Source: Cheiracanthium punctorium
Lineage: Eukaryota > Arthropoda > Arachnida > Araneae > Cheiracanthiidae
Direction of reading: 5' to 3'
Length of the DNA: 64,000 bases
NCBI GenBank assembly: GCA_038373885.1
Contig: JAWZYV010012265.1
Location: 114,644-178,643 of the forward strand
Each line of letters begins with the position of its first letter. Within the stretch, counting starts at the first letter, position 1. Below, piece by piece: positions 5,291-62,250 of this stretch. The position numbers were made by a program, and so were the translations under genes. The notes beneath the pieces are model-generated. The model did no database searches. It saw only the letters and a list, made by a program, of their open reading frames with translations, and was not told the DNA's origin.

Positions 5291-6063
5291 ACATGCCTTA
5301 ACACATAATAGAAATTTTTAAAACTTTTTTTTCTGTGAAAAAAGTAAGAAATTGGAGTTTTTCTAAGGAATTTTGGGGAGAGAAAAAGGTGGGGAAGAAA
5401 TAAAGGCATTATTTAATTTATTTATATGTTAGATTTATAAGAAATGTTAGGAAAGAAAAGGAAAAATATAAATACAATCTTTAATTTATTGATATGTTAG
5501 ATAAAACATACAGAGCCGGCCCGAGCAAATTTGGTGATCTAGGCGAAAAGTTTTAACGGCAACCTCCTTAATTACGCCACTAACCAAAGGTGACTAACCA
5601 GTCAAAGGTTCTATCATCCAGCCAAAGTGTCAAATGGCAATGCCATGTGCCATATCCCCCCCCCTCCCGTGAATCTCTCGCGGCAGTGGTTAATCGAGTT
5701 TAGCGCTCGGGGTAGAACGCCTCAGTTACGTCACTGTCCTATTGGGTAAAGTCTCTTGATTTAATACCAGGAACGGGCTGGCTCTAAAATTTTGGTAGGG
5801 AAAACGTTATTAACGGTTCAGTCCATTAACAGAAAAGGGAATTTTTTTTGAAAGAGAGGGAAGGGAAAGGATTTTTAAAAACGGCCGAAATTACATGCAG
5901 CTGTGTGGAATTTTCCACGCCGTCTACTTAGCCAGTTCGCTACTGCCTGATAAGGAGAGAGAGATGGACTAAAGGATGAGCTGGGCAGCGCGAACAAGTT
6001 GCTCCCCCCCTCCCCTCAGGTGAGACTAAAAAAAGTCCGGTGCTTGGCTAGTACCGCCCTTCT
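5291..6063. other. Noncoding, possible hAT-like fragment at ~5513-5787
   Basis: CAGAGCCGGCCCG at about 5513 and GGGCTGGCTCTA ending near 5787 are inverted relative to each other, like the ends of the element at 50468-50722. The flanking 8-mers do not match, so the limits are weak. C-runs and G/A-rich stretches fill the rest. Confidence 0.35.
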
Positions 6064-12105: not shown

Positions 12106-12109
12106 TTAA

Positions 12110-12385
12110 CCCATTTATGTCTAGCGTCCCTTTTTTGGTACGGCATTTTCGCTATCATTCGAAAACGTTATTTATTTTTCCGAGCCTTTATTCGCGAGTA
12201 TAGAACCTCAATTCCACAAAACATTTTAATATGGCCAAGTGGGATGCTGACATTTCAATTTTTATACATAATGATTTTAAATGAAATCATCCCTTGTTCA
12301 AAAATTTGACATCAGAAATTTATCAATTACTGCTGGTGTTAGCAAAACTCGGAGAAAGTCGCAAAAATATCCAGGCACGAATGGG
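12110..12385 (+). mobile_element. piggyBac-like MITE, copy 1 (276 bp, TTAA)
   Basis: Flanked by TTAA on both sides (12106-12109 and 12386-12389), with ends CCCATTTATGTCTAGCG and CCAGGCACGAATGGG. TTAA targeting and terminal CCC are piggyBac features. There is no coding capacity. Confidence 0.85.
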
Positions 12386-12426
12386 TTAAACATTTTGCAA
12401 TTGTATTAAAGCATAATACATGTTAA

Positions 12427-12702
12427 CCCATTTATGCCTAGCGTCCCTTTTTTGGGACGGCATTTTCGCTAGTAGTCGAAAACGTTATTTATTTTTCCTA
12501 GCCTTTATTCATGAGTATTGAGCCTCAACTCTACAAAATATTTAACATGACCAAGTAGTATGTTGATATTTCAATTTTTATGCATAATGATTTTAAAAGA
12601 AATCCTCCCTTGTTCAAGAAGTTGACATCAGAAATTTATCTATTATTTCTGTTATCAGTAAAAATCGAAGAAAGTCGCAAAAATATCCAGGCACAAATGG
12701 GT
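12427..12702 (+). mobile_element. piggyBac-like MITE, copy 2 (276 bp, TTAA)
   Basis: Same family and same length as 12110-12385, flanked by TTAA at 12423-12426 and 12703-12706. It has the same orientation and lies 41 bp away. Confidence 0.88.
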
Positions 12703-12885
12703 TAAAAAGGACGTATATTTTCATTTTTAAATTGAATAAAATAGTCATAGTAAAGCTACGATAAATCAAAGAACCTGTTCTCAAAAGAACAGAAAAAAGA
12801 ACTGTTCTTTAAAAAAGAACGGGAACAGTGAACAACTGTTCTTTGAAAATAACGCTTTTCCCCATCTCTAGAGGACCCCTTAGAA

Positions 12886-15495: not shown

Positions 15496-16828
15496 TTGAG
15501 TTGAATGAAATTTATTTAAACGCTTGATGTCAAGTGTTAGGAAAGTTGAGTGGAGTCACTCCGGATTTTTTTCTTTATATATATATATTAACAAGATTTT
15601 TTGTACATTAAAATTTGTAATCGCTACTACAAAAAAATAAAATAAATAAATAAATAGTACATACCTGTAAATACAATTATGTCAGACATTTGAAAATCTT
15701 TAGGGTGTCTCTCCACAAGCTATACAAGACACAGTAATAAACGATAAACTTAAGTCCGTAAAGAAACTTTCACACAAATAAAATTATCGAAATATAAGAG
15801 TATTCTTATTCTGTAACATTAAAAACCATTTACCGTTGACGTAATTAAGCCCTACTTAGCAAAAGTTTACAATCCTTTTGAAAAATTAGACTTGTTATAT
15901 TTATAATCTCTTATTCTTCCAATAAAATGCAAGAATAAGAGATGGAGAGTTTTAAGTGGGAAGGAGATTTTTAACTTTTAAGTAATATAATTTTTACTTA
16001 ATTACAAAAAAATTAATGAATAAAAGCATATTTAATTCGATTTTTTTTATTTCTTTAACTTATCCTAAAAAGTCATTAAAAGTTCCGTTAAAAAAAAAAA
16101 AAAAAAAAAAAAATAGATCAGGATAAGTTTTTTCGCTCTGGCGGATCCGGATCCGGATATTTTCTTTTCGCTCAGACGGACACAAATACCGTTACGCATT
16201 ATATATTATATATCTGCTTTTTTATTTTTAATTTTTTTTCACTTTATGAATGGATTATCTTGGGATTTCACATTACGTAAGTTAGCTATTCTATATTATA
16301 TATATATATATATGAGACGTCTGATATTTCAAGTAAAGTTTCAGAGTTAAGGCAGGTAATATGGTTTATTGAACATTACATTTAAGTTACAATTTAGAAT
16401 GAGAAGAGGGGAGGGGAGACGGGTACAAGAATCAGCGTGGACTCATTAAGCAGTTCTAGTGGCAGAAGTCCCCCGATTTTCGATGTGCGGGAGTATTTAC
16501 GCTTACCACACCACGTGGTCTGCGAAGACACAACTCCTCCTCTCTCTTATCTCTGATCGAACCACACACATTTAACAACATGACCCGCATCCGGGCCTAC
16601 AAGGGCGTGAGGACACGTGTACATCTAAAGAACTCAGAATCGACGGCCTGATGTCTGGCAAATAACAAAATAAATAAAACATAGCTCCAGAGCGCGCGTG
16701 GCAAGTATGACAGGAAAGTAAAACTTACAGTGAAAGTACCCGCTTGAACAATACCCAAACTAGTAAAACCCAAATTACCTTTTTATACATTACAATATAT
16801 ATATATATATATATATATACATATGTTA
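15496..16828. other. Noncoding; poly-A and AT microsatellites
   Basis: Poly-A at about 16089-16113, (AT)n at 16295-16312 and 16795-16820. A GC-richer stretch at 16330-16720 resembles dispersed element sequence but shows no recognisable ORF or ends. Confidence 0.4.
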
Positions 16829-17019
16829 CAGTGAAAACCCGAAATCAGTCAAAACCCGAATTAACTAGGGAAAACGCGTTCTGACTGAGTGCATCAGGGA
16901 AAACCCGAATTAACTAGGCAAAACGCGTTCTGACTGACAGCGCTAGGCAAAACCCGAATTAACTAGGGAAAACCCGTTTTATTGGAGTAGCGGTAGTTTC
17001 GAGGGGCCCCTACAGAGGA

Positions 17020-18065
17020 GGCATATTTTCCAGGGGGCCCCCTACAGCGATGGCCGGACCCACTGATTTTTTTCGGGTCTCGCAAAGGGCCAGCTTTAGC
17101 ATATTTTCAAGGGAGCCCCCTTAAGTGATAGCCGGATGCAGTAATAGGGAGTTTGTGCATACCGTTTCCTACGCTAACGCTAACGCTATCCGCTATACGG
17201 AGTATTTTGACCAACCATGTTTCGCATTTTATGCGTGCGCATGCGCTTTTTTGTCCAATGTCATTTAACGTTAGCGTTACCGTGAGTGAAACCGGGCCTG
17301 CACAAACTCCCTAATGTTTTTTGAGTCTCGCAAAGGACCAGCGTTAGCATATTTTCCAGGGGGGGCCCCTACAACGGTGCCGGACCCACTGATGTTTGTT
17401 TGTGTCTCGCAAAGGGACAGCATTAGCATATTTTCGAAGGGGCCCTTAAAGCGACGGCCGGACCCATCGATGTTTTTGGGTCTCGCAAAGGGCCAGCGTT
17501 AGCATATTTTCGAGGGGGCCCCTTAAAGCTATGGCCGGACAAAGTGATGTTTTTTGGGTCTCGCAAAGGGCCAGCGTTAGCATATTTTCGAGGGGGCCCC
17601 TTGAAGTGATGGCCGGAAACACTGATATTTTTTGGGTCTCGCAGAGAGCCAGTGTTAGCACATTTTCCAGGGGGCCCCTACATCGGTGGCCGGACCCACT
17701 GATGATTTTTTGGGTCTCGCAAGGAGACAGCGTTAGCATATTTTCGAGGGGCCCCCTAAAGTGATGACCGGACCCATTGATGTTTCTTTGGGTCTCGCAG
17801 GGGGCCAGCGTTAGCATATTTTCCAGGGGCCCCTACAATGGTGGCCGGACCCACTGATGTTTTTTGGGATCTCGCAAAGGGCCAGCGTAAGCATATTTTC
17901 GAGGGGGCCCCTTGAAGTAATAGCCGGACCCACTGATATTTTTTTGGGTCTCGCAGAGGGCCAGCGTTAGCATATTTTCGAGGGGTCCCCTACAGCGGTG
18001 GCCGGACACAGTGAGGACTTTTGGGTCTCGCAAAGGGCCAGCAATAGCATATTTTCGAAGGGAGA
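17020..18065 (+). repeat. Minisatellite of ~80-90 bp units inside the Tigger-like element
   Basis: About a dozen units of 'ggccggacccactgatgttt' + 'tgggtctcgcaaagggccag' + 'cgttagcatattttcgaggg' + 'ggcccc'. An inverted partial stretch of the same unit follows at 18120-18240. ORFs on both strands (for example 17446-17817 minus) are products of this repeat. Confidence 0.9.
17147..17311. mobile_element. TA-flanked MITE nested in one minisatellite unit (165 bp)
   Basis: Ends GGGAGTTTGTGCA and TGCACAAACTCCC, flanked by TA on both sides (17145-17146 and 17312-17313). Removing it restores a normal minisatellite unit. It contains GTGCGCATGCGC, a strong NRF-1-type palindrome. Confidence 0.85.
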
Positions 18066-18446
18066 GTAAGATCCAATTTTAGTGGGTAAAGCATTAACAT
18101 TCCTGAATTTACATGGGAAAACATGGGGTCCGGCCACCACTGTAGGGGGGCCTCCTTTCGAAAATATGCTAACACTGGCTCTTTGCGAGACCCGAAAAAA
18201 ATCAGTGGGTCTAGCCATCGCTTTAGGGGGCCCCCTGGAAAATAAGCCTCCGCTGTAGGGGCCCCTCGAAAACGTGCTACCGCTACTCGAATAAAACGGG
18301 TTTTCCCTAGTTAATTCGGGTTTTGCCTAGCGCTGTCAGTCAGAACGCGTTTTGCCTAGTTAATTCGGGTTTTCCCTAACGCACTCAGTCAGAACGCGTT
18401 TTCCCTAGTTAATTCGGGTTTTGACTGATTTCGGGTTTTCACTGTA

Positions 18447-19444
18447 ACATATATATATATTCGCGAACACAGATGCGGATGTCAGGAAGACCTCTCGCCT
18501 GAAAATTCTTATCGATTTCATAAAATTTTGTATACCTTTCTTTACGTAACTTTGTAGTTTATTGCATGTCCATAATCAATATTAAAGAATAAAAACCAAG
18601 ATCAACGTTTTTGGGACACCCTATATGCAACTATGCTTCTTTAACATATATATTTTTAAGAAAATTCTGTGCTTATTTAAACCACAGAAATTTGTTAATG
18701 ATTCTAAGCCTTACCGCTTAGCATCTTTACTTTCCACCTCAGCGTGATCCTCTTGAAAGATAAAAATATTTAAATTGACTTAATTATGTTATTTAAATGA
18801 AGCTATAAACTACAAATATGAAATTCCTTTCTTTCGACTTCATAAATGTTTCACTACCATGATTGAGAACGCGCTGCAAGTGCTTGAAAGAATCCATTAT
18901 GTTTCGTGTCGCTTAATAGCGGTTTGCTATAGATTACCTGAAGAAATGCCAGTCAGGTAATCAATTTCCTTTTGAGCAGATTATAAATGTCAGGGAAGAT
19001 ATTTTTATGAGAGTTGCACGCATCAGCGAAATTTCATTTACGAAGTTACTGAGATGAGCGATGGCCAACAGAAGCAGATTACCTGAGCTTCTGAATGAAT
19101 CATGTTTAATCATTTTTCAAAGAACTCGGAAACATTTAGGTGTCAATAAAAAAAATATTTTGTGGTTTATAATTTTATTAAAATACAAAATCAAACAGCT
19201 GTTCTGGAAGTTCTACACTAAACATTTCGGAAAGTCAGTCAGGTTAAAAAAAAAAAAAAAAAAAAAAAAATCCGTTGTTAATCACCTGAAAGTATCAACG
19301 GAGATTTTTCAGATTATTTTGTTCGTCATCAGCAAAACGTAACCATCGATAATCCCCCCAAAAGAAGCACAAAATCCCTTTAATACTGTTTTTGCCTCTT
19401 AAGGCAAAGCAAAAACTATATGACTTTTTAAGGGTTTGTAATGC
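18447..19444. other. AT-rich noncoding; poly-A at 19244-19270
   Basis: No gene is seen. The A-run may be the tail of an old retroposon. Confidence 0.4.
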
Positions 19445-24400: not shown

Positions 24401-27134
24401 AGGAGTAGAAAGCCTAGAACTTAAGTAAGTCTGTTGTTCTGAGCTTTCTAATCTTTGTAAATTGAATGGGTCCATATGATAGATGGCCTTCAGACAAAGG
24501 TAAGCCCAGGGCCCCATGTTGGCTTAGTCGAGCTCTGGCTGCCTCAGTAATGAGTCTTTGAATACCTTGCTACCGCCATCGTTTCGCGCGCAAGCGCAGC
24601 ACGCTCTGCAGCATTTTAAAGACCCCAGCCAGTAAGCAACGACGGACACAGGGGGAGAATTGCTACCGCTGCGTCTTTGCAACAATGAGAACAAATAGAT
24701 TAGGGCAAATAGAACACTAAAGTAACAAGAACACTTAGCAAAAACTAGTTTTAAAAGGTAAAATTGATTAAAGAAGTTGTAAACTAACACTCCTTAAAAA
24801 AAATATACTTAGCAATACTATCGTTTCAGGTGGTGTAAAAAGACCATCCTTCTTCAGATGAGAAATGTCAAAAACAGTCCAAAAATGAACAACAAATTAC
24901 CAGAACACCCAATAAAAAAAAATCACTGAAATACTACCATTTGAGCGTTCGACAGAGAGTTACTGTGTCGAGGTAGGCATGGGCCTGAATGTCTTACAAC
25001 GTTTTTTTACGAGCCATAACATGCTTGAATATTTTCAGAAACTACCGGGGGAAAAAAAATAGTACAAAAAATGAAACCAAAATCGTGACAGCCTTGTATT
25101 ATGGATTATTTTAAGTAAGACAAGTTATACATCAGTAACTTTTATTCTGCATATTTGCAGCATATATTTATGTTTGATCATTGAACTTAGAACCTTAATC
25201 TATGACAGTTCTTTTATTTGTCCACATAAAAGACCTATAAATATTATTAGTTGCAAGACAAAGAAATATCTTGGAAGTCTTTTCCAAAAGATTTCTTGCT
25301 GATCGACTCATTTTTATTTTATTTTTATAAATAAAAAAAATGAGTATAATTCGAAGATAATTTCTAATAATGGCTTGTACGGACTTAAAAAATGTGACGC
25401 TTTTAAGTAAATTAGTTGTCGGCCAGTGGTCGAAATTCGACCAAAAAGCATTAAATTTTTTATTTTGAGAGTGAATAAAGTTCTTCTGTCAAAGAGTATG
25501 TCTCAAGATTCCATATACAATGGAACCTACTAAAGCGACCACCTGGGATAAGAGACCATCTTTCTAGAGGGACACTTTTTACAATTTCACTTTACAACCA
25601 CCACACTTTTCTGTGAAGACGGTGTTTTTCTAAAAACTCTATCATATTTTGCTGAATGCAAAGGCAGCTCCAGCGAGTGGGTTATAGGGGTCATCCCTCT
25701 CTACCGACCTTGGATTTCACACGTTCAGTTTGTGTTTTGAACAATTTAGGCTAATCCGTATACAAAATAGTATTTATATACAAAATTCAATGTATACAAA
25801 AATTTCAATATGCTAAAAAGAAATTTGTATGCTTATTCGTTACATAACGTGGAATTGGGGAAAACGTGTGGAATTATCTAAAATACGAAATTAAATTAAA
25901 CTTCTAAAGCGCGGAAAGGGTTAAACAACTATGCACTGGAGATCGCTTTAGATTTGTAAGCATTTGGCGCTGATCACAATTATTTGACAGTTTTTCTCTT
26001 GCTCTCGGCTAACCTAGAAAAAAAAAGCTCAAACTAATCATAGTCAAAAAATTTAAAAACTCTACTGGATATAGTTATTGATTTCACTGTTATCATAGCA
26101 AATTATTTTATCGTAGCTATGGTGATATGTTCTCTGTTCATCAGATATTCGATTAAGTCAGCATTAATTAAAGTTCAATCATCATTTTTAGGGTCTATTA
26201 TAACGGAGTTCAATATGTTATCTGAGAGTATGTTTTCGGAAATATTTCCATACACTTCATTAATAGTATTATTTTCATTCCCTATTAATTGATGAGGTAT
26301 TTCTTCAATAATATTTTCGGAAAAAATTTGCTTTAGCATACTGCGCGGTGGGAGATTGTGAAGAAATTGTCGAATTGGCGCGTTTCTGTGGAGCGTCTCT
26401 TGGATTGCAACCTGTCCTGTTCGGTTCGTTTTTCCACGGCTTTAAAACATGGAATTTACAACACTTCATGCACTTATCGACAGTCTAAAAAAGTCGTCAA
26501 TCACAGGGCTAAAGCACATTTTAGTCATAGGGGTTTCATCAAACTGGGGAATAATTTCACTTTTTGCAAATTTTGTTGTAATACTATAACCCTATAGTAC
26601 TGCTGAAACTTGGTGTTGTTATTTCAAAATTGACACAACAATGGAACCGTCCCCAAGTTGGCGCGGAATACTGCGTGCCAAATTACTTCTCTAATTTTTT
26701 GCAGTGCACTAGCATATTACACAAAAATTTTAACATTCGCACAACCACCTCCATTCGAACTTTAACTTAATTTCGCGCTCATCCGTTCACGCAATGTGCT
26801 GTAAAAGGGACACAAAGTTTTTCCTTAGCATATTTATATATACATAGATTAAAATTAGTTTCATAAAATCAGAATTATAAAAGAGCTCTTGGAAGGACAC
26901 GAGTAATTCTGAAAGATATGTCCACTAACAGAAACTGGACTCTCCTGGCTAAAAGCTGAAGTTAGATTTGCACAACATAAAATTTACTAAAACTCATTTT
27001 AAAATTAAAAATTCATATGGATGTTTGTATTGGTGATGTGAATAATATACCTCTGATTTTAATTTTTGTAGTAGTTCAATTTAAAAATTGGTAAATTTTT
27101 AATAAGTGGGCCTTTTGTCCTTCTTTTTTTTCAG
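21427..27134. other. Rest of the sulfotransferase intron; mostly unassigned
   Basis: No further host exon is recognised. Visible are a (CT)n run at 23045-23067 and old repeat pieces with G/C runs at 22930-23000 and 23690-23830. A 'ctcctagcc' stutter lies at 24350-24400. A degenerate pogo-like end 'acaatggaacctactaaagc' is at about 25519. The ORF at 26358-26597 matches no family I know. Confidence 0.4.
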
Positions 27135-27923
27135 ATTGAGGGTTTCCTTCCTTGGCAAAAGAAGCATAAAAACTATATGAAATTGCAACGAAATATACAT
27201 TACTGGGAAAAATGCAGCAAAAATAATTCATGTTTCGACGGTACGTACATTGACAGGTTCTGCCGCAACCAGTCGACTGTGATAGCAAAAACCATCAGAC
27301 TCAATCTCCTGGAAGCATCTAAGTTATTCGAGACTCATCCTCATCTTAACTTAAAAATAATATATTTGACCAGGGATCCCCGTGGAACTATGAACTCTCG
27401 GATGAAGAAACCCGTCAACATGTGGTGCAAGCAGGACCCGATGTGTTTCAACTCCAGTCTCTTCTGCTCCAGCATTAGTGCCGACGTGGACACGACATGT
27501 ACCCTGTCCATAAATAGACCTCGGGATTTTATGGTGATACGATACGAGGATGTCTCTAATAATCCTTATGGTGTCGCTTCGCAGATAGTGAAGTTCCTTG
27601 GTCTATCATCAATTCCTCGACAGATGAACGAATTTCTGAAGACTCACACTTTTCTGATCGGCAGCGTCAAGCGGAAAACGAAAATTGGTGGCGTAGCGTA
27701 TCCGTACTCAACTTTTCGTAATTCATCCTTAACAGCAATGAGCTGGAGGAAAGAGATAACTCTCAAGGATATCAAACGTCTGCAGAATATTTGCAGACCA
27801 TTTTTAAATGCCTTTGGTTACCATTCCTATCGAACACTCTCATCACTACGATTGAATGATGACATGAACATCAATATCCAGAAAGCTCTGGAAACCAGGT
27901 GTAATAGTTCTTCCATGTGGTAA
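27135..27923 (+). CDS. Carbohydrate sulfotransferase, last coding exon (3'-PB loop)
   Basis: Follows a T-rich acceptor (CAG ending 27134) and stays open for 262 codons to TAA at 27921-27923. It joins the exon at 7684-7913 in phase 0, giving 338 visible residues. Key features are KIIYLTRDPRGTMNSR, the 3'-phosphate binding loop (family pattern RDPR...SR). Next is a cysteine-rich region (WCKQDPMCF..LFCSS..TTCTLS) common in arthropod members. Then come FMVIRYEDVSNNPYGVASQI (usual 'RYEDLA..P') and W-R near the end. All core motifs are intact, so the gene looks functional. Catalysis is Golgi luminal and PAPS-dependent; the acceptor glycan is unknown. Confidence 0.92.
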   Translation: MEGFLPWQKKHKNYMKLQRNIHYWEKCSKNNSCFDGTYIDRFCRNQSTVIAKTIRLNLLEASKLFETHPHLNLKIIYLTRDPRGTMNSRMKKPVNMWCKQDPMCFNSSLFCSSISADVDTTCTLSINRPRDFMVIRYEDVSNNPYGVASQIVKFLGLSSIPRQMNEFLKTHTFLIGSVKRKTKIGGVAYPYSTFRNSSLTAMSWRKEITLKDIKRLQNICRPFLNAFGYHSYRTLSSLRLNDDMNINIQKALETRCNSSSMW

Positions 27924-30480: not shown

Positions 30481-31189
30481 AATATCAGTAGTAAGGAAAG
30501 GAGAGTTCTGCCCAGCCGGATCCCATGTTAATTCGCCGGAGCCGTTCGGACGCTTTCCCTAGGCTGAGCGGGGAAGGGGGCGTGGTAGGACCGGATGCTC
30601 GAAGGATTGATAAGAATTTTTTTTTCCTTTTTTTTCAAATAAGGGGACTTGTAATTTTTTCAGACTTTAACATATTTTTGAAATAAGGGGACTTGGAAAA
30701 TTTATCAGATTTGAACGCGTAACAACAAAAGAATTCACAGGCTAATGATTGTTGGCTTAAACCATTAGGCTGAGAATCACTTCAGGTATAAAATTGTAGG
30801 TGTATTGTGTTATACTTTAGTTTTCAAAATGAATTGGGACTTTGATTAATTTTTCGAAGTTTATTTTGTTATTTATTTAATTTTCTTTACCATTTAGTAA
30901 TAGAACCAATGCAAATTGAATAAATGTTGCTTAATACATACTTCTAATGTTTAGCTAATTTTTGTATACCGTTTAAGATTATAGCATATATTTAATAAGT
31001 AACAGTTTACTAGAATATTAAAGTAGGGTTTAGGATACCCATACATTTTCTACAAATTTCTTGTACTGTTAGGGAAGTGAGAAAATTATACCATAGAACG
31101 ATTTTAGTACCTATAGTTTTTACAAATAATGATTTAGATAGTGTATGAACTTTTTTATCTGAACATTTTTTTCTTCAGAGATTTTTACC

Positions 31190-31490
31190 CAAGTTTTAAT
31201 TTTAAGTTAAATAATGTTACAACAAATATTTTTTTTTAAATCAAGAGTTAATTTATTTTATTTTTTTTACCCAAGTTTTAATTTTAAGTTAAATAATGTT
31301 ACAACAAATGTTTTTTTTAATCAAGAGTTAATTATTTTTATTTTTTTAACCAAGTATTAATTTTAAGTTAAATAATTTTACAACAATATTTTTATCAGTT
31401 TTAATTTATAACAAATATTTTTTACCAAGTTTTATTTTAAGTTATATAATTTTAGAACAAATATTTTTTTTAATCAAGAGTTTAACTAGC
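31190..31490. repeat. Imperfect ~80 bp tandem repeats in the left arm
   Basis: Units of 'acccaagttttaattttaag' + 'ttaaataatgttacaacaaa' + T-run + 'aatcaagagtta' recur about four times. The matching block in the right arm (about 40860-41270) has more units, so copy number changed after the arms separated. Confidence 0.8.
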
Positions 31491-33599
31491 ACAAACTTTT
31501 AGACTAGATAGTACTATTGTTAGAAAATTGAACTATTGAAAATAAAATTGAAGATCCGTTTTAGCACAGTTGTATACTGCATGTACATAAAATATCTTTC
31601 AATACTTAGATAAAATGACTTTAAATCGCAAATCATTACTTGAACTAAAAAAAAAATACAATGTTTTTACTTACTTGAAGCCACGTCTTGCGAAATCTTC
31701 CTTACTGTAAAGTACTTCTTACGGTAAAAAAAAAACCCGGTAAATTTCTTGACGGATGCAAAGCAAGCTAGCAGATCAGGAAAATAGAGTAATGATTTAA
31801 AATACATTAGCTCTACTCCCCCTCTCAGCTACATATTTCAGGGCATCACCTTGATTAATTTTTATCCTCATATGCTGAAAATAGACATAACATTTAGAAA
31901 CTAAATACTAATAAAATAACACATTTGAAGATATTAAACGCTTTAAAAGTATTTTTTTTTCTTATAACAATTTACCAGATTCACAATACTATTTTATGTA
32001 GGATAAAATTAGTTAGCAAGCGAAAATTTAATCTTAGTTAGAATTTACTGAAATACAAATACCATGCATGCCTTATTTTCTATTAGGAGAAAGCCCTCAA
32101 ACCCCAGTTTTTGTATACAAACTGCTTAAAGTACTTCTACCGATAATGCTATTAATATTAATTACACTGGATTACCCACTTAAAATTTTGAAAAACGCCA
32201 AAATACAGAAAAACATGCATTAACAAAAAAAATCACACTTAAAATTACATCACATAAAATGTGCAAACTATAAGAACCACATAATTATTTTTAATTAGAA
32301 TTACAGGTATCAACTTTTATGTAACTAAAATAATAGAAAATATTACACTTACCCTGTACTTGTACACGCGAGAGGTGAAAATAACAAAAATACTTAAATA
32401 ATTCGCAAATATACCCACAGCATAAGTAGAGCACATGCATGTGATATCCCTAGTACAGCTGATAAGAAATTTAGAGATAAGAAAGTGCCTTGAGGCTCTA
32501 CAGAGCCGGTTAAATAACAGTAGGCCAGTTTGCCGATAAGATAAACTCATGGAGGCTGTTAGGGGTATGCAATTGGGGACACGTGTTTCATTCTACGTTC
32601 AAAAATGGGGACTTATGGATTAAGATGTTTACTACTTAAAAACATGATCTAATTTTTACAAACGCATTGGAACTTTGTATAGGATATCTATTGAACACGT
32701 ATTAAATACATTATGATTATTCTTCTGATCGACATTATATCCTAAATTAAAATATTAAAGTTAAGCTACAACGATTAATATATTTTACGTAGTTTTGGAT
32801 AATAATGAATCATTAAATTAATTTCTGTGAAACAATTAGCAAAGATCATTATACTAAAGCAAATTATTTTTGTTAAGTTTTGATAAATAACAGTAATAAA
32901 TTATAGGCATTGCAGATGAATGAGTATTCACGTATAAAATAGGTATTTAGTACTGAAAAACAGGATCTAATTTTAACAAATGCATTGGAATTTTGTATAG
33001 GATATCTATTGAACATGTATTAAATACATTATGATTATTCTAATATGAAAAACAGGGTTAAGATTCTTTACTTGTGATGAATGCCACTCATTTTTTTTAC
33101 ATACTTAAATTTTACATAGACATAATTTTAATAAATTCATAAACTGAAATTATTGTTTAAAACAATATTTACAATAATAAACTAAAATTTTTATTTAATA
33201 AAGTCATAAACTAAAATTATTAATGAAAACTTGTTAATAAATTAAACATATCAAAATTTTTGCACTCAGTTTTTTTATATACTTAAATTTTACAAAGATA
33301 TCCTTTTAATAAATTCATAAACTAAATCAATTTTTACAATAAAAAAACTAAATTTTTTATTTAATATAGTCATAAACTAAAATTATTAATGAAAACTTGC
33401 TAATAAATTAAACTTATTACTCTAAAAGATAGCTAATCACAACATATAACAGAAAAAATATAAGCAATTATAATACCTGGAAAATACTGGACAACACTCT
33501 TGTTACATGCGGACAAAACATCTGTTTGCTCGGCTAAAGAATTCTTAGGTATCCGTTGCAGGAGAACTTACCTACGCCCAACCTACAAACTCTACAAAT

Positions 33600-33981
33600 T
33601 TAACGGCAACTGGTTTTCTCTTATCAGGCATCACAGATCAGATAAGAGATAAGGAAGTGACATGCGCAGAAGATACCTGATAGTGACGTGTGCAAATCTA
33701 TGATGATTCAATATCCGGTAGGTTTGTTGGCAGGATGTACTATTTACATTGAGGGGCAACTCTCTGTAACAGGCTAAGACAAGTTAGATGATGCAATATC
33801 TACTGGGTTGATAAAGTTTTAAGGTAGAGGGCGCTTGGGTAATCACGTGATTTTTTAAAGAACCAGTAAAGACATTTTAGTTAGATAAAGTGGTCAGGTG
33901 TGTGTTGCGAGACTCCCTTTACACTGTGTGCGCCTATACTTAAGACGTGTGTTTTAATTGATTTTTCGCCGAGTTTCAAGA
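33600..33981 (+). promoter_or_regulatory. Upstream region of the AlkB-like gene, GATA-motif rich
   Basis: Contains several WGATAR/TTATC sites (for example CTTATCAGG near 33619 and CAGATAAGAGATAAGG near 33639, plus GATA sites near 33811 and 33884). A CACGTG E-box is at about 33844. The mirrored copy lies at 37641-38020. Function as a promoter is inferred only from position. Confidence 0.35.
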
Positions 33982-34461
33982 ATGTCTTTGCTTGAATCGA
34001 TCGAAAATAACTTTAACATTGAATACACTCCCGAGTTTTATACTCAAAGTGATGCTGATGTGTTGCTGCAAGAAATAATACAATTGCCTTTAGATGTAAA
34101 GCCTCTGCAAAGTAGTGAAAAGAAAATTTCCTCGACCCGTAAAGTAATTACTTTTGCTGATGAAGGAATCAATTACAGTTTACCTGGAGCAACACTCTCT
34201 GTTTACTCTTGGATACCCATTTTGCAAAAAATACGTGAAGATCTACAGAAAGTGACAAATTATGAATTTAATATGGTACAAGTGAACTTTGGCTCTGAAG
34301 AACAACCTAAAATTGAAGACGGTAACTACGAAGATTTTAATCTAGACCTATCATCAGGTGTATGCATTCTAAGTTTCGGATCTAAACGAACTTTGGATTT
34401 TAAACCAGCGAACTGTAAAACCACCACCATTAAGCTAGAACATGGTTCAATTAAGGTTTAA
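33982..34461 (+). CDS. AlkB-like (ALKBH2/3-type) protein lacking the HxD iron motif, arm copy 1
   Basis: 159 codons from ATG at 33982 (A at -3; the longer frame upstream has no ATG). AlkB proteins are Fe(II)/2-oxoglutarate dioxygenases that repair alkylated bases. The family blocks appear in order: FADEGINYSLPGATLS (ALKBH2 'YGDAGLTYTFSGLTLS'), WIPILQKIREDLQKVT, EFNMVQVNF, ILSFGSKRTLDF and LEHGSIKV. Where the family has IGEHRDDE this protein has IEDGNYED, so the Fe ligands His and Asp are replaced by Gly and Tyr. It stops right after HGS, before the second His and the 2OG-binding Arg. Predicted not to be an enzyme; it may bind DNA or act as a decoy or structural protein. The ORF is intact. Confidence 0.75.
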   Translation: MSLLESIENNFNIEYTPEFYTQSDADVLLQEIIQLPLDVKPLQSSEKKISSTRKVITFADEGINYSLPGATLSVYSWIPILQKIREDLQKVTNYEFNMVQVNFGSEEQPKIEDGNYEDFNLDLSSGVCILSFGSKRTLDFKPANCKTTTIKLEHGSIKV

Positions 34462-35097
34462 TTAAAGATAAGTTTAGACATCTATGCTAAAATAGCTGAT
34501 CATTTCTGTACCACATTTAAATCCATTTTATCAAAAACATGTTAAGCATACTACTTCTACGAAATTTACAAAGTTCTATTAGCTAAGTTCCTTTCGAGAA
34601 ATAATTTCATAACTTATGAGAACTCATAAACGTATACAAATCAAAAGTATACTTAGTTTGAACAAGTAACATGTATAAAAGTAAGAGCATATTTATTTAA
34701 AATTTGTAAGCATAACCATCTCAATCACTAAAATGTGTAACATGTGCACTTAGTTGATATTTCTCATAAAAATATTCAAGCCCATTACTTAATAAAAATT
34801 ATAAAAATATGCTAAGTTAATACTCTAATGTTTTAAAAACCTAGTGTCTGATTTAAAATATTCTGTTACTTCAAGTAAAACATGGTAAGATCTTTACATT
34901 AAAGAACACCTAAAAAATCTTTATTTAAAAATACTAAGTTTCTTTATCTCACTTAACTTTATTTTTGAAAAACCTGTAAAATCGATTAAGTTATAAAATT
35001 ATGGAAACTAACTTTTTTAGCTAAGTTCATTTTATAAAAAATTAGTACTTTGGGAATTCTCATGTAACACAATTTACCTATCACACTTAAGTTTATG

Positions 35098-36523
35098 ATT
35101 TTAATCAAAACATTTTATTTCTATGTAGTAGATTAATGTTTCCATAGTACATGCTTCAATAAATTTTGTTAAATTTCTAACTTTCTACCTTGTAGTGTAT
35201 AAAAGATAAGTATAAAACGAGAACCTTAAATCGTGACCAAGTATGCTAACTTTATCACTTTTTATTTCATAGATTTTTATTTTGCAAGTAATCAACACAC
35301 ACACATACACATGAACAAAACACAGAAAAGTTTTGCATATGTAAACTGTTTTATTTACAAAAATATATTTTAAATTACACAAATTATTTACACAATTAAG
35401 AAAATAATAACTTTTCAATGAGTGTTCTATAACTAAGCATGCATAAGTCAGTAAAATCTTACTGTTGTAGAAGCAAGCATACCTTTTCTACATAATCACA
35501 ATGGTTTTAATATATTTTTTACAATCGCAATACTAGTTATACACCAATAACATCACATAATTACACATGTTTTGTCATCCTTGGAATTAGCAAAATATGA
35601 AAACGGTTGAAAAAATGTATTAAATAGCTCATTTTGAAGATACTTCATATAGTCTTCAATGAAAATGTTTGAAAAAAATTCTCCGTCATAATGACAAGTG
35701 CATTTGTTCTCGCATATCTCTCTTGCAATATACGGCATGTCAACCGTAAACCATGCTTTACTACTTATAAGACCCTCTCGCTCATCAATATGTGTTCTAT
35801 TCGAACAGGCATGTATCCTTTGCGAAGAATGATCCTGAACCCGGCCTATGTTTTTAAAAATTTCCTGATGTACTATATCCATTAATTGTTGTTTTGCCTC
35901 ATCATAATTACAATGGGGTTCACGGTTACATTTTTGCGGCTTTAATTTTAAAATTAAATGAGGTAGGGTCGTCGTATATAGCGTTTTTAGAATACACTCC
36001 AATATTTTATTCCTTATTTCACAAAGTTTTAATACTTGGTCATTTAAAAGTATCAAGGAAATTGGATTTAACGTAAATGATTCTCCGGTTTTATAAATTT
36101 GTTGTAAGATGCATTTTCCATCATCATTAAATACAGATAATTGATTATTACAAATAAAAGAGCTATTGTTATGACATATATTAAAATCTAATAGTTTTAC
36201 AATAAATTCGATCCATGTGGAAGGGTTCATCACGACTCCCTGACCGGTTGGTATATAGTCTAATTGGGCGTTCTGAATAAATTGTCTAATATGAATCTTC
36301 AAGTCAGTTCTTTCATCGTGAAGTGAAACGTAGATAAGTCTTTCCAAGTGCCATGTACTATTTACAGAAGCATATAAGCTGCGGTAAAGATTATCCGTCC
36401 AATCGTCCAACTTTGCCCTTTTCGGGGAAGGCTCTTAAATGTATATTTTGGCAAACGTTAGGTTAATGTGCGGGACTGCCACACTAAGTTCAGAAGGAAT
36501 ACCATGCGTGGAAGGAATACCAT
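35098..36523. other. Unique centre of the giant palindromic element
   Basis: The arms stop mirroring at 'cacttaagtttatg' (to 35097) and 'cataaacttaagtg' (from about 36524). Between them lies one coding region on the minus strand (35553-36434) and about 450 bp of AT-rich sequence (35098-35552) without an ORF I support. Confidence 0.75.
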
Positions 36524-36527
36524 GCAT
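35553..36527 (-). CDS. Central protein with two PC4-like segments, NLS-like and CaaX motifs (one in-frame stop)
   Basis: PC4 proteins bind single-stranded DNA and act in transcription, replication or repair. Numbering from the Leu codon at 36410: the first PC4-like segment is about residues 24-76 (YVSLHDERTDLKIHIRQFI, then MNPSTWIEFI), like 'YVSVREFRGKVLIDIRE...ISLNPEQW'. A weaker second one is about 88-139 (DGKCILQQIYKTGESFTLNP). Eight codons upstream read PSPKRAKLD across the junction, resembling the c-Myc-type nuclear signal. The last four residues are CVIM, a farnesylation-type CaaX box. A Cys-rich ICENKCTC lies before the end. The only ATG in frame is at 36527-36525, in the edge of the right arm, but a TAA at 36437-36435 separates it from the rest. 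So either the copy is broken or an intron removes the stop. Confidence 0.55.
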
Positions 36528-37160
36528 AAACTTAAGTGTGATAGGTAAATTGTGTTACATGAGAATTCCCAAAGTACTCATTTTTTATAAAATGAACTTA
36601 GCTAAAAAAGTTAGTTTCCATAATTTTATAACTTAATCGATTTTACAGGTTTTTCAAAAATAAAGTTAAGTGAGATAAAGAAACTTAGTATTTTTAAATA
36701 AAGATTTTTTAGGTGTTCTTTAATGTAAAGATCTTACCATATTTTACTTGAAGTAACAGAATATTTTAAATCAGACACTAGGTTTTTAAAACATTAGAGT
36801 ATTAACTTAGCATATTTTTATAATTTTTATTAAGTAATGGGCTTGAATATTTTTATGAGAACTATCAACTAAGTGCACATGTTACACATTTTAGTGATTG
36901 AGATGGTTATGCTTACAAATTTTAAATAAATATGCTCTTACTTTTATACATGTTACTTGGTCAAACTAAGTATACTTTTGATTTGTATACGTTTATGAGT
37001 TCTCATAAGTTATGAAATTATTTCTCGAAAGGAACTTAGCTAATAGAACTTTGTAAATTTCGTAGAAGTAGTATGCTTAACATGTTTTTGATAAAATGGA
37101 TTTAAATGTGGTACAGAAATGATCAGCTATTTTAGCATAGATGTATAAACTTATCTTTAA

Positions 37161-37640
37161 TTAAACCTTAATTGAACCATGTTCTAGTTTAATGGTGGTG
37201 GTTTTACAGTTCGCTGGTTTAAAATCCAAAGTTCGTTTAGATCCGAAACTTAGAATGCATACACCTGATGATAGGTCTAGATTAAAATCTTCGTAGTTAC
37301 CGTCTTCAATTTTAGGTTGTTCTTCAGAGCCAAAGTTCACTTGTACCATATTAAATACATAATTTGTCACTTTCTGTAGATCTTCACGTATTTTTTGCAA
37401 AATGGGTATCCAAGAGTAAACAGAGAGTGTTGCTCCAGGTAAACTGTAATTGATTCCTTCATCAGCAAAAGTAATTACTTTACGGGTCGAGGAAATTTTC
37501 TTTTCACTACTTTGCAGAGGCATTACATCTAAAGGCAATTGTATTATTTCTTGCAGCAACACATCAGCATCACTTTGAGTATAAAACTCGGGAGTGTATT
37601 CAATGTTAAAGTTATTTTCGATCGATTCAAGCAAAGACAT
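37161..37640 (-). CDS. AlkB-like protein lacking the HxD iron motif, arm copy 2
   Basis: Inverted duplicate of the gene at 33982-34461: the same 159 codons, differing at two residues (Lys to Met in LPLDVKPLQ and Glu to Val in NYEFN). It has the same loss of the Fe-binding His and Asp and the same early end. That both copies stay open despite AT-rich surroundings suggests recent duplication, gene conversion between arms, or selection. Confidence 0.75.
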   Translation of the reverse strand: MSLLESIENNFNIEYTPEFYTQSDADVLLQEIIQLPLDVMPLQSSEKKISSTRKVITFADEGINYSLPGATLSVYSWIPILQKIREDLQKVTNYVFNMVQVNFGSEEQPKIEDGNYEDFNLDLSSGVCILSFGSKRTLDFKPANCKTTTIKLEHGSIKV

Positions 37641-40172
37641 TCTTGAAACTCGGCGAAAAATCAATTAAAACACACGTCTTAAGTATAGGCGCACACAGTG
37701 TAAAGGGAGTCTCGCAACACACACCTGACCACTTTATCTAACTAAAATGTCTTTACTGGTTCTTTAAAAAATCACGTGGTTACCCAAGCGCCCTCTACCT
37801 TAAAACTTTATCAACCCAGTAGATATTGCATCATCTAACTTGTCTTAGCCTGTTACAGAGAGTTGCCCCTCAATGTAAATAGTACATCCTGCCAACAAAC
37901 CTACCGGATATTGAATCATCATAGATTTGCACACGTCACTATCAGGTATCTGCTGCGCATGTCACTTCCTTATCTCTTATCTGATCTGTGATGCCTGATA
38001 AGAGAAAACCAGTTGCCGTTAAATTTGTAGAGTTTCTAGGTTGGGCGTAGGTAAGTTCTCCTGCAACGGATACCTAAGAATTCTTTAGCCGAGCAAACAT
38101 ATGTTTTGTCCGCATGTAACAAGAGTGTTGTCCAGTATTTTCCAGGTATTATAATTGCTTATATTTTTTCTGTTATATGTTGTGATTAGCTATCTTTTAG
38201 AGTAATAAGTTTAATTTATTAGCAAGTTTTCATTAATAATTTTAGTTTATGACTATATTAAATAAAAAATTTAGTTTATTATTGTAAAAATTGTTTTAGT
38301 TTATGAATTTATTAAAAGGATATCTTTGTAAAATTTAAGTATATAAAAAAACTGAGTGCAAAAATTTTGATATGTTTAATTTATTAACAAGTTTTCATTA
38401 ATAATTTTAGTTTATGACTTAAATTATTTATGACTTAAATTAAATAAAAATTTTAGTTTATTATTGTAAATATTGTTTTAAACAATAATTTTAGTTTATG
38501 AATTTATTAAAAGGACGTCTATGTAAAATTTAAGTATGTAAAAAAATGAGTGGCATTCATCACAAGTAAAGAATCTTAACCCTGTTTTTCATATTAGAAT
38601 AATCATAATGTATTTAATACATTTCAATAGATATCCTATACAAAATTCCAATGCATTTGTTAAAATTAGATCCTGTTTTTCAGTACTAAATACCTATTTT
38701 ATACGTGAATACTCATTCATCTGCAATGCCTATAATTTATTACTGTTATTTATCAAAACTTAACAAAAATAATTTGCTTTAGTATAATGATCTTTGCTAA
38801 TTGTTTCACAGAAATTAATTTAATGATTCATTATTTTTCAAAACTGCGTAAAATATATTAATCGTTGTAGCTTAACTTTAATATTTTAATTTAGGATATA
38901 ATGTCGATCAGAAGAAAATTCATAATGTATTTAATACGTGTTCAATAGATATCCTATACAAAGTTCCAATGCGTTTGTAAAAATTAGATCATGTTTTTAA
39001 GTAGTAAACACCTTAATCCATAAGTCCCCATTTTTGAACGTAGAATGAAACACGTGTCCCCAATTGCATACCCCTAACAGCCTCCATGAGTTTATCTTAT
39101 CGGAAAACTGGCCTACTGTTATTTAACCGGCTCTGTAGAGCCTCAAGGCACTTTCTTATCTCTAAATTTCTTATCAGCTGTACTAGGGATATCACATGCA
39201 TGTGCTCTACTTATGCTGTGGGTATATTTGCGAATTATTTAAGTATTTTTGTTATTTTCACCTCTCGCGTGTACAAGTACAGGGTAAGTGTAATATTTTC
39301 TATTATTTTAGTTACATAAAAGTTGATACCTGTAATTCTAATTAAAAATAATTATGTGGTTCTTATAGTTTACACATTTTATGTGTTGTAATTTTAAGTG
39401 TGATTTTTTTTGTTAATGCATGATTTCTGTATTTTGGCGTTTTTCAAAATTTTAAGTGGGTAATCCAGTGTAATTAATATTAATAGCATTATCGGTAGAA
39501 GTACTTTAAGCAGTTTGTATGCAAAAACTGGGGTTTGAGGGCTTTCTCCTAATAGAAAATAAGGCATGCATGGTATTTGTATTTCAGTAAATTCTAACTA
39601 AGATTAAATTTTCGCTTGCTAACTAATTTTATCCTACATAAAATAGTATTGTGAATCTGGTAAATTGTTATAAGAAAAAAAATACTTTTAAAGCGTTTAA
39701 TATCTTCAAATGTGTTATTTTATTAGTATTTAGTTTCTAAATGTTATGTCTATTTTCAGCATATGAGGATAAAAATTAATCAAGGTGATGCCCTGAAATA
39801 TGTAGCTGAGAGGGGGAGTAGAGCTAATGTATTTTAAATCATTACTCTATTTTCCTGATCTGCTAGCTTGCTTTGCATCCGTCAAGAAATTTACCGGGTT
39901 TTTTTTTTTTTTTTACCGTAAGAAGTACTTTACAGTAAAGAAGATTTCGCAAGACGTGGCTTCAAGTAAGTAAAAACCTTGTATTTTTTTTTTTAGTTCA
40001 AGTAATGATTTGCGATTTAAACTGTCATTTTATCTAAGTATTGAAAGATATTTTATGTACATGCAGTATACAACTGTGCTAAAACGGATCTTCAATTTTT
40101 ATTTTCAATAGTTCAATTTTCTAACAATAGTACTATCTAGTCTAAAAGTTTGTGCAAGTTAAACTCACCTTT

Positions 40173-40860
40173 CTATAAAATATGCTAAATGCATCAATAA
40201 AATATCACTCAAAAGGTTGATACATGTATAAAATTATGCTTTCATAGTAAAACTGAAATTAATTTTGCACATAAACAATCGAACTCGTATCGTATTGAAA
40301 TTCTATAAATCATGTTACTCTACTTGTGATATACAATTCGTATCGTATTCAAACTCTATAAATCATGTTACTCTACTTGTGATATACAGTAAAAATATTT
40401 TGTAGGATTACTAAAAATGCAATTTTTTCTCTAATTGATCTATAGAAAATATAAGCTAGTATAATCGCTGTCTAAAATCTATCAGAAATGTGTGGGTAAG
40501 AAAAAATGTTTAGATAGATACTTTGTTTGTTTGTTTGTGTTTTAAGGCAAACCTGCACGCGGGGTATCTGCCTAGGATGAGGGGTGCCTTGGTAGGAGGA
40601 CTTTCTAAGGGGTTCTAACGCGTATTCACGGATAAATACTTTGAGTATTCATACATTTCGTATACAAAAACTTGAGTTTTTTGGGATATATATGGCTAAA
40701 GTGATTTTCTCGCAATAGAATATAAGACTATATACAAATCATTATTTGTAAAATCTTTCTATGGTATAATTTTCTTACTTCCCTAACCGTAGATTAAATG
40801 TATTGATATCCTACTTTAATGTTAAACGGCTACTTAACAAAAATACGGTATACAAAAAAT
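40173..40860. repeat. Insertion present only in the right arm
   Basis: Breaks the arm mirror after 'tgcaagttaaactc'. It holds a ~57 bp direct duplication ('atcatgttactctacttgtg', 40278-40388) and a SINE family A fragment (40545-40632). It also holds a diverged second copy of arm sequence ('tctatggtataattttctta', 40752-40860; compare 41345-41420). Confidence 0.65.
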
Positions 40861-42144
40861 TAAAACACTTGATTAAATTTTTTTTCTTGATAAATTAAAA
40901 ACACTTGATTAAAAAAATATTTGTTGTAAAATTATTTAACTTAAAATTAAAACTCTTGATTAAAAAAAAATTTTTGTTCTAAAATTATATAACTTAAAAT
41001 AAAACTTGGTAAAAAATATTTGTTATAAAATTAAAACTTGATAAAAAATATTTGTTGTAAAATTATTTAACTTAAAATTAATACTTGGTTAAAAAAAATA
41101 AAAATAAATTAACTCTTGATTAAAAAAAAAAAAATTTGTTGTAACATTATTTAACTTAAAATTAAAACTTGGGTAAAAAAAATAAAAATAAATTAACTCT
41201 TGATTAAAAAAAAATTTGTTGTAACATTATTTAACTTAAAATTAAAACTTGGGTAAAAATCTCTGAAGAAAAAAATGTTCAGATAAAAAAGTTCATACAC
41301 TATCTAAATCATTATTTGTAAAAACTATAGGTACTAAAATCGTTCTATGGTATAATTTTCTCACTTCCCTAACAGTACAAGAAATTTGTAGAAAATGTAT
41401 GGGTATCCTAAACCCTACTTTAATATTCTAGTAAACTGTTACTTATTAAATATATGCTATAATCTTAAACGGTATACAAAAATTAGCTAAACATTAGAAG
41501 TATGTATTAAGCAACATTTATTCAATTTGCATTGGTTCTATTACTAAATGGTAAAGAAAATTAAATAAATAACAAAATAAACTTCGAAAAATTAATCAAA
41601 GTCCCAATTCATTTTGAAAACTAAAGTATAACACAATACACCTACAATTTTATACCTGAAGGATTCTCAGCCTAATGGTTTAAGCCAACAATCATTAGCC
41701 TATGAATTCTTTTGTTGTTACGCGTTCAAATCTGAAAATTTTTCCAAGTCCCCTTATTTTAAAAATATGTTAAAGTCTGAAAAAATTACAAGTCCCCTTA
41801 TTTGAAAAAAAAGGAAAAAAAAATTCTTATCAATCCTTCGAGCATCCGGTCCTACCACGCCCCCTTCCCCGCTCAGCCTAGGGAAAGCGTCCGAACGGCT
41901 CCGGCGAATTAACATGGGATCCGGCTGGGCAGAACTCTCCTTTCCTTACTACTAATATCTATGTACACAAAACGAAATCTTTGGAATGCGAAACTTTTTT
42001 CACGTTTTCAGAAGAGCGCTCATTGTAATTGCTTCACAACTGACTTCTAGTCGTACAGTAACAGCAGTATTTGGTGCATTTTGGCTTCAAATATAAGGCA
42101 ATAAACAACGGATGTTCTAATTCGAATTTCGAAGGGATCTGTCC

Positions 42145-47965: not shown

Positions 47966-48062
47966 AATCTAAAGTAAATAAAAAACTTTGTAAAAAACAC
48001 ACATAAGATACCTATAACATCTTATGTGTGTTTTTTACAAAGTTTTTTATTTACTTTATTGT
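47966..48062. repeat. Perfect hairpin made of Penelope-type 3' tails
   Basis: About 40-bp arms ('taaagtaaataaaaaacttt' + 'gtaaaaaacacacataagat' and the inverse) around a ~9-base spacer. The right arm and following 'gtttaacacc..ttttgagtgt' match the tail after the hammerhead-like motif at 62113-62160. Confidence 0.8.
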
Positions 48063-51697: not shown

Positions 51698-51701
51698 TTA
51701 A

Positions 51702-51977
51702 CCCATTTGTGCCTGGATATTTTTGCGACTTTCTTCGATTTTTACTGATAACAGAAATAATAGATAAATTTCTGATGTCAACTTCTTGAACAAGGAATGA
51801 TTTATTTTAAAATCATTTTGCATAAAAATCGAAATATCAACATCCTACTTGGTCATGTTAAAATATTGTGCGGAGTTGAGGCTCAATACTCATGAATAAA
51901 GGCTAGGAAAAATAAATACCGTTTTCGACTAATAACGAAAATGCCGTCCCAAAAAAGGGACGCTAGGCATAAATGGG
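51702..51977 (-). mobile_element. piggyBac-like MITE, copy 3 (276 bp, TTAA)
   Basis: Inverted relative to the copies at 12110 and 12427, with the same length and TTAA at 51698-51701 and 51978-51981. Confidence 0.88.
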
Positions 51978-52259
51978 TTAATAACTATTCACCCCCCCCC
52001 AACCCTAAATCATTGTACTTTTCTAAGATTCTATCTATCCTCCCCTACAAAAGTGCTTTTAAAAAATGAAAAACAAAAACAGTAAAATTATATTTAAACT
52101 TTTCGTGTTTTAACTGAGTGTGCGCCTCTTTTTCCGCTTGCATTCCGACCTCGCCAGCCCCTAGCTTCGGCTCTGGCCCCAACTGCGAGATTCGAGATTT
52201 TTATTGAATTCATTGCAGATACATGTATTCAACAAAAGCACAATCTATAACAAAATTAA

Positions 52260-61591: not shown

Positions 61592-61762
61592 GTGACCATA
61601 TGGCATACGTCCGAAATTTCTGTGTTTTTTTGCGATTTGTCCTCAAAATGGAAAGAAGCAATTGAGGACAATTTTTAATTATTACGTTGTTTTCTAATTA
61701 GATTACTGTTAATTATTTCATTAATTATAATATATCCCCCATTTTGTTTCATAATAAGTAGG
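61592..61762. mobile_element. Truncated 'TAAGGTGACCATA' MITE
   Basis: 'aaggtgaccatatggcatac' then 'gcgatttgtcctcaaaatgg' and 'attaatta' follow the family order. The right end is missing where the Penelope-type inverted segment begins. Confidence 0.65.
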
Positions 61763-61767
61763 GTAAG

Positions 61768-61815
61768 TTGATACGTACGTTTCGGCCAAAAACTGTTTTG
61801 GCCTTCCTCAGTCAA
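61768..61815 (-). ncRNA. Hammerhead ribozyme-like motif, copy 1
   Basis: Same 48-nt layout as 62113-62160 on the opposite strand, with one loop base changed and all core bases kept. Confidence 0.6.
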
Positions 61816-62112
61816 AGCTCTTTGACATATGGAGCAGAAGGAGTTCTACAGTTAGTATGTACACTCTCCAAAAAAAGTATTCGAGCAAGAGAGAAATTTC
61901 CTACGTTGGTTTCGTATATTAAAAATTATTTATCAAAGAATACGAATTAGGCTATGTATAAATATGACTTTCTATATTTCTATCAAGTTGTGCGTTTTTC
62001 AAAAAGTCAATTATTATTTGAAAATCTAAAATAGGAAATTTCTCTCTTGCTCGAATACTTTTTTTGGAGGGTGTATACGAGCAGTTCCTTCAGCTCCGTA
62101 TATCGAAGGGCT

Positions 62113-62160
62113 TTGACTGAGGAAGGCCAAAACAATTTTTGGCCGAAACGTACGTATCAA
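62113..62160 (+). ncRNA. Hammerhead ribozyme-like motif, copy 2
   Basis: TTGA (stem I), CTGAGGA (core CUGANGA, 62117-62123), one extra A, stem II GGCCAAAA-CAAT-TTTTGGCC, GAA (62145-62147), loop-less stem III ACGT/ACGT, A at the cleavage position (62156), and TCAA closing stem I. This is the minimal type known from Penelope elements, which works best as a dimer. The extra A before stem II departs from the consensus. Confidence 0.65.
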
Positions 62161-62250
62161 CTTACCTGTAACATCTTGTGTGTGTTTTTTACAAAGTTTT
62201 TTATTTACTTTATCGTTTAACACTATTTTGAGTGTTTTTTTCGTGGTAAC

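Follow-up and report, generated by a model that had tools for sequence, protein, structure and literature searches.

A probable Polinton/Maverick satellite turned palindrome in the genome of the spider Cheiracanthium punctorium

The stretch of DNA considered here (the window) comprises 64,000 nucleotides of the forward strand of contig JAWZYV010012265.1 of the spider Cheiracanthium punctorium (GenBank assembly GCA_038373885.1, positions 114,644 to 178,643) and harbors an inverted repeat of 11.5 kb spanning positions 30487–41953, which we discuss as a candidate derivative of the Polinton/Maverick transposons. The original prediction, made from the sequence alone, had described a palindrome with ~5-kb arms, a 1.4-kb core and a duplicated AATATC, all of which are located where it had placed them. 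According to self-alignment, the left arm occupies 30487–35097 (plus strand), the single-copy core, or loop, 1,427 bp at 35098–36524, and the right arm 36525–41953 (minus strand). The raw alignment of the arms had 4,691 columns with 92 mismatches, 47 of which fell in the non-homologous core end and were removed from the count, leaving 45 mismatches in ~4,600 columns (~99.0% identity). The main difference in length is a segment of ~790 bp found only in the right arm (40166–40950). AATATC stands on either side of the element as a target-site duplication (30481–30486 and 41954–41959), whereby two random 6-mers drawn from the window would be identical with P = 0.0006. The termini read AGTAGT...ACTACT, and the terminal 114 bp (30487–30600, plus strand, and 41840–41953, minus strand) have a guanine + cytosine content of 60.5%, as opposed to 28% in the AT-rich arms. 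The first 150 bp of the terminus match other ends in the host genome at 81–91%.

The original prediction had also proposed two cargo genes, one of them in two copies and the other in one. Judged from the sequence, these AlkB-like and PC4-like "genes" are instead pieces of a single AlkB-PC4 gene that has been cut up by rearrangement. Its N-terminal AlkB-like part is present in both arms (33982–34461, plus strand, an open frame of 159 amino acids, and 37161–37640, minus strand), while the C-terminal part, including the PC4-like domain, is at 35553–36434 (minus strand), with an in-frame stop between it and the last upstream AlkB residues. A protein of 471 amino acids from a 1,963-bp contig of a public assembly (P0001) matches the AlkB-like frame at 46% and the PC4-like frame at 55% in one chain, and in three relatives from the host genome (C2, C5925 and C10752) AlkB-PC4 forms one continuous frame of 508–523 amino acids. 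The AlkB domain is similar to ALKBH2 (profile E 8e-22); for PC4, a two-sequence profile gave a weak match (E 0.0023), and Pfam matches stayed under the cut-off throughout. In the coordinates of another relative, C6939, the window element runs along the arm to 3737, from 5833 back to 3772, from 5187 to 5833, and then along the arm back from 3737. The center thus consists of two pieces of the gene end with its downstream part, placed in opposite orientations between the arms, and this layout indicates that the gene was split by an inverted piece. The segment lying downstream of the gene in C6939 is found inverted beside the AlkB part where the left arm meets the core (34451–35097, plus strand) and again where the right arm does so (36525–37171, minus strand); this second copy interrupts the gene. 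A gene structure with two exons and an arm-borne intron was rejected: the relatives have a continuous frame, and the supposed intron is the inverted segment that belongs downstream of the gene. Moreover, the core region of the window element is 98–99% identical to C6939, the outer arms mostly 85–94%, a contrast suggesting that the window copy is itself a mosaic.

By its sequence, the window gene copy is broken, and some relatives keep open frames: two in C2 and in C10752 (one of each being cut by or crossing the border of its stretch), one in C5925 and none in C12284. Scans of IMG/VR with P0001, with the C-terminal part and with the two-sequence profile revealed no relative, nor was any found in prokaryote genomes; the AlkB part, used by itself as a protein query, gave no match. 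A 19-base end pattern matched one IMG/VR contig, in which nothing else was alike, and this was judged a chance match. The phage search returned AlkB domains only (5 records), three of which served as catalytic yardsticks. An AlphaFold2 model of P0001 had a mean predicted local distance difference test score of 31.8 and was not used.

The HxD motif and two 2-oxoglutarate-binding arginines are the catalytic residues of AlkB dioxygenases. At these positions, the window copy has G-N-Y and H..A, as do C2, C5925 and C10752 identically, and thus lacks the residues expected of an active enzyme; P0001 has H-K-Y and H..A. The ratio of non-synonymous to synonymous substitution rates (dN/dS) between the AlkB-PC4 copies of C2, C5925 and C10752 was 0.27–0.29, and replacement changes were below the neutral expectation in two tested pairs (p 0.0001 and p 0.007). 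This set consists of the three full-length open frames of six fetched gene-bearing elements, besides the window and C12648 (see below); the frames of C12284, C6939 and C2141 are interrupted, and the exclusion of these elements favors low values. On this comparison, the AlkB-PC4 of the palindromes appears to be a dead enzyme that is kept, i.e., with catalytic residues lost yet sequence conserved.

Relatives were searched for in the 2.53-Gb host genome with 40 candidate places scored per DNA search, and the proportions given here are not estimates. Using the first 2 kb of the arm as a query resulted in 121 matches among the scored candidates, and using the terminal 150 bp in 41. The inner arm region (query beyond 990) was present on 29 contigs by hand count, and in 10 of the 29, the window's included, it occurred twice, inverted, within ~16 kb. 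Eight other elements with both ends in the terminal search were fetched, together with the ends of three palindromic pairs from the arm search; for a fourth pair (C6755) one end only was fetched. This sampling is biased toward copies in which both ends match well. All 11 other elements with both ends read were flanked by perfect 6-bp duplications that differed from element to element (8/8 from the terminal search and 3/3 from the arm search, the ends of the latter being placed by script among a few AGTAG sites). This bears out the proposal that the palindrome moved as one mobile unit. The genome search for copies with the same termini, which had been suggested as a check, found AGTAGT ends in 10 of 12 elements, the window included, and AGTAGG in C5925 and C12238. 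Three relatives are not palindromic and have inverted repeats of 0.33, 0.50 and 0.60 kb, i.e., within the Polinton/Maverick range. Two of them, C6939 (6.7 kb) and C2141 (5.6 kb), have ordinary 0.5- to 0.6-kb ends and one gene, broken in both.

Six other elements are self-complementary nearly from end to end: C2 (13.6 kb), C12284 (14.1 kb), C5925 (14.3 kb), C10752 (15.4 kb), C12238 (8.0 kb) and C7546 (4.8 kb). Arm-search matches indicate inverted arms of at least ~2 kb in C5618 (11.4 kb) and C10515 (13.6 kb). The spacers between the nearest exact arm matches are 66 bp in C2, 67 bp in C12284, 6 bp in C5925 and 80 bp in C10752. Mapping on C2 and the window put the loop of C12238 (~60 bp) just before the gene and that of C7546 (~84 bp) within the arm. 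Counting these two, the window and the group of the first four, there are at least four different palindrome centers. The centers of C2, C12284, C5925 and C10752 are related, as judged by eye, so that a single founder behind these four probably transposed repeatedly. Since duplications flank whole palindromes at different sites, the palindromes evidently move as units.

The third non-palindromic relative, C12648, is 16.5 kb long, has 0.33-kb inverted ends and shares its terminal ~240–650 bp with the other elements at 84–94%. It encodes an rve integrase with a chromodomain (L024:4825-5889, PF00665 E 9e-12), an A32-like packaging ATPase over the cut-off (PF04665 E 1.9e-5) and a C5-protease-like frame under it (PF00770 E 0.0022), the latter being, from its sequence, a probable adenovirus-like protease. 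Protein-primed DNA polymerase B (PolB) occupies two open frames (L023:1699-4482 and 803-1744); it was recognized by its 58–63% identity to the nearest PF03175-bearing loci (L038 and L039), compared with 37–47% to other PF03175 loci, while a Pfam scan gave no PolB match for the longer frame and no match at all for the shorter. Two further frames of 449 and 258 amino acids had no Pfam match; by their look, we take them to be likely capsid proteins. C12648 also carries a homologue of AlkB-PC4 (PF13532 E 2.2e-23), which retains H-K-D and R..R. The shared ends, combined with integrase, ATPase, protease-like frame and PolB, place the family in the Polinton/Maverick lineage. C12648 is the relative with integrase and PolB that the original prediction had proposed to look for between such ends, and it strengthens the suggestion of a virus-related, non-autonomous element with Polinton-type ends. 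The earlier statement that the palindrome matched no nameable family was too strong. The host genome has 34 listed PF03175 matches representing other Polinton-type polymerases, nine of the 34 in frames longer than 1,200 amino acids. An 81-bp sequence is common, inverted and at 96%, to the flanks of C12648 (L023:3-83) and of C2 (L017:20-100), and the two insertions seem to lie within or next to members of a single host repeat.

The window element was predicted to have no integrase, polymerase or capsid of its own, in line with the 14 of its 30 open frames that were scanned, the remainder being mostly mirror or nested copies: in these 14, no rve integrase, protein-primed PolB, packaging ATPase or adenovirus-like protease was found, and no capsid or replication gene. 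A one-strand translation scan of the core and right arm, with X at stops, also gave nothing, but it missed the known domains as well and is insensitive.

Trees of three arm regions were built for the window, C2, C12284, C5925, C10752 and C12238, leaving out C7546. The arms of one element were sisters in 6/6, 6/6 and 5/6 palindromes for the three regions, with support of 0.73–1.0 for the sister pairs. Arm identity was 97.7–100% within elements vs. 88–99% between them. Rewriting of the arms thus takes place mostly within each element, and it may happen at transposition or by later gene conversion alike. In C5925 (L021/L022), the middle is 99% symmetrical and the outer arms show differences of up to 11%; the left ends of C5925 and C12648 match over a longer stretch (643 bp, 91%), and their right ends match at 94% over 250 bp.

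The window element is probably a non-autonomous, palindromic satellite of a virus-like transposon of the Polinton/Maverick type, and its symmetry would be a secondary acquisition. Its ancestor would be a small Polinton derivative of the C6939 type (6.7 kb), in which a single AlkB-PC4 gene lies between ordinary inverted ends of ~0.5 kb. A full Polinton, for example C12648, would have supplied the protein-primed polymerase that copied this derivative starting at its ends. In the course of strand displacement, the nascent strand would have changed template and been extended back to the same end (snap-back), giving left arm, loop and inverted left arm. With both ends of the product intact, replication in trans and insertion in trans by the integrase of a Polinton would be possible, and the insertion would generate the 6-bp duplication. 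The palindromic single strand could fold on itself, which would allow one arm to template the other and yield new copies with near-identical arms. The window copy would have undergone at least two changes, namely the loss of a gene copy from a C2-type palindrome and then a second snap-back inside the gene, splitting it; this order fits, and other orders are possible. We infer the protein-primed replication, the mobilization in trans, the snap-back and the templating of one arm by the other, as well as the order in which a short form gave rise to the palindrome; alternatively, the short forms may be palindromes minus one half.

An alternative that accepts a Polinton satellite attributes the palindrome to chromosomal recombination, i.e., an inverted duplication maintained by gene conversion between the arms, rather than to replication of the element. 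Gene conversion between inverted repeats is common, and the arms of C5925 do exchange sequence with other copies. Against it speak the whole palindromes flanked by duplications at different sites, which have moved as units, the at least four centers, most with a short loop, and the mostly sister arms of C2, C12284, C5925 and C10752 in spite of their related centers (by eye). These points are compatible with gene conversion after insertion, and we regard an origin by chromosomal recombination as unlikely. A Foldback-type DNA transposon (FB, Galileo) outside the Polinton kinship, the long inverted repeats of which were expanded and homogenized by recombination, would explain the multi-kb arms with their sub-terminal tandem repeats of ~80-bp period (31182–31482, plus strand, and, of the same kind, 40951–41259, minus strand), as well as the variation of arm length among copies. 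Such an origin is, nevertheless, quite improbable, because the same kind of ends bound C12648 with its Polinton gene set, the 6-bp duplications are shorter than those generally known from FB and Galileo, and AGTAGT ends match those published for Mavericks (PMC8097293).

Fold-back reads can produce long inverted duplications, which raises the question of an assembly or sequencing artefact. The segment present in one arm only includes a truncated fragment resembling a short interspersed nuclear element (SINE) (~40526–40635, minus strand), inserted between two copies of ATACTTTG and 81–82% identical to window 786–888, its strand, truncation and duplication being judged by eye. This fragment indicates separate histories of the two arms. 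Moreover, the target-site duplications lie outside both arms, and palindromes of the same family recur at many other loci between other duplications. An artefact is, consequently, highly improbable.

Several observations weigh against the satellite reading that we prefer. The differences between the window arms (31 transversions vs. 14 transitions) show a transversion excess that is odd for plain aging and in part an effect of the alignment. A single-axis script put the spacer of C12238 at 491 bp instead of the ~60 bp from mapping. Support for some of the sister-arm pairs is modest (0.73–0.86), and the arms of C5925 are not sisters in one tree region; in another region, its right arm is closer to C10752 (98.3%) than to the left arm of the same element (97.8%), and identity between its outer arm pieces is 88.5–98%. 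This pattern indicates that arms recombine with other copies too, and from its sequence C5925 is likely a recombinant mosaic. Gene conversion after insertion predicts the same arm similarity. Since both short non-palindromic elements carry broken gene frames, no intact short precursor was seen. The interior of C12648 has no match to the palindromes at the DNA level beyond the ends, and its AlkB-PC4 is 37% identical to their homologue, so that C12648 is a relative sharing this type of ends rather than a demonstrated parent. Finally, the evidence base is one genome assembly.

Under the satellite reading, hairpin intermediates and mobilization in trans are predicted. The replication and DNA packaging of Polintons have mostly been deduced from gene content, and satellites with Polinton ends, several independent centers and arms homogenized mostly element by element would be a natural record of replication errors that were reused. 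An AlkB-PC4 that has its catalytic residues in the full Polinton and lacks them in the satellites, where it is nevertheless conserved, is a lead to either conflict or partnership between helper and satellite. A further, speculative step, possible but doubtful, is that the palindrome is a self-perpetuating genome form rather than damage, in which one end is doubled, a hairpin folds in every cycle and lets one arm rewrite the other, and the dead AlkB-PC4 is kept because it helps. If so, the latter may bind replication intermediates or compete with the active version, and doubling a ~6.7-kb derivative to 13.6–15.4 kb would approach the ~17-kb mean size of intact Mavericks (PMC8097293).

A few other features of the window deserve mention. 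At the joint of core and right arm, a 15-bp sequence noticed by eye occurs in two copies (36493–36507 and 36511–36525). An Rfam search of the element gave no match, and the DNA fold of the terminus is less stable than that of shuffled sequences (z-score +1.9). An open frame with a sulfotransferase domain (27075–27923, PF00685 E 1.6e-15) is probably an exon of a host gene upstream of the element. A tandem array with copies mostly 82–86% alike (17311–18062) lies between inverted repeats at 16813–17136 and 18129–18460 (93%), and the whole (16813–18460) may represent a different kind of small foldback-like element. Further self-complementary stretches are found at 61762–62166 (~405 bp, 79%) and 47970–48058 (89 bp, 93%), and a dispersed repeat of ~285 bp has three copies, 86–95% alike, at 12106–12706 and 51698–51984.

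Judging from the sequence features compared here, the window element belongs to the Polinton/Maverick (adintovirus-like, Polintoviricetes) lineage with an unusual architecture. For intact vertebrate Mavericks, PMC8097293 gives 6-bp duplications, (AGT)2//(ACT)2 as the commonest end motif and (AG)3//(CT)3 as another, inverted repeats of 46–1,447 bp and a size of 12.7–24.6 kb with a mean of ~17 kb. The window element shares the duplication length (AATATC) with all 11 others, has the commonest motif (AGTAGT//ACTACT) and shares its ends with the carrier of integrase, PolB, A32-like ATPase and C5-protease-like frame. In contrast, its arms of 4.6 and 5.4 kb, and those of relatives reaching up to half of the element, exceed the ~0.05–1.4 kb of Polinton repeats, so the element is filed as a non-autonomous palindromic Polinton derivative rather than as a Polinton. 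A narrow literature search, covering titles and abstract openings, revealed no Polinton that is palindromic and none with a fusion of AlkB and PC4. Foldback elements (FB, Galileo, TU) likewise have long inverted arms that contain tandem sub-repeats, although FB and Galileo have 7- to 9-bp duplications and a P- or hAT-type transposase, as opposed to 6 bp and an integrase-bearing partner here. The Tlr elements of Tetrahymena are likewise of the Maverick class with long complex inverted repeats, but are not known as end-to-end palindromes. Snap-back, or panhandle, defective viral genomes have the same inverted copy of one end around a single-copy loop; unlike these, the elements described here are integrated in the host genome and amplified as a family.

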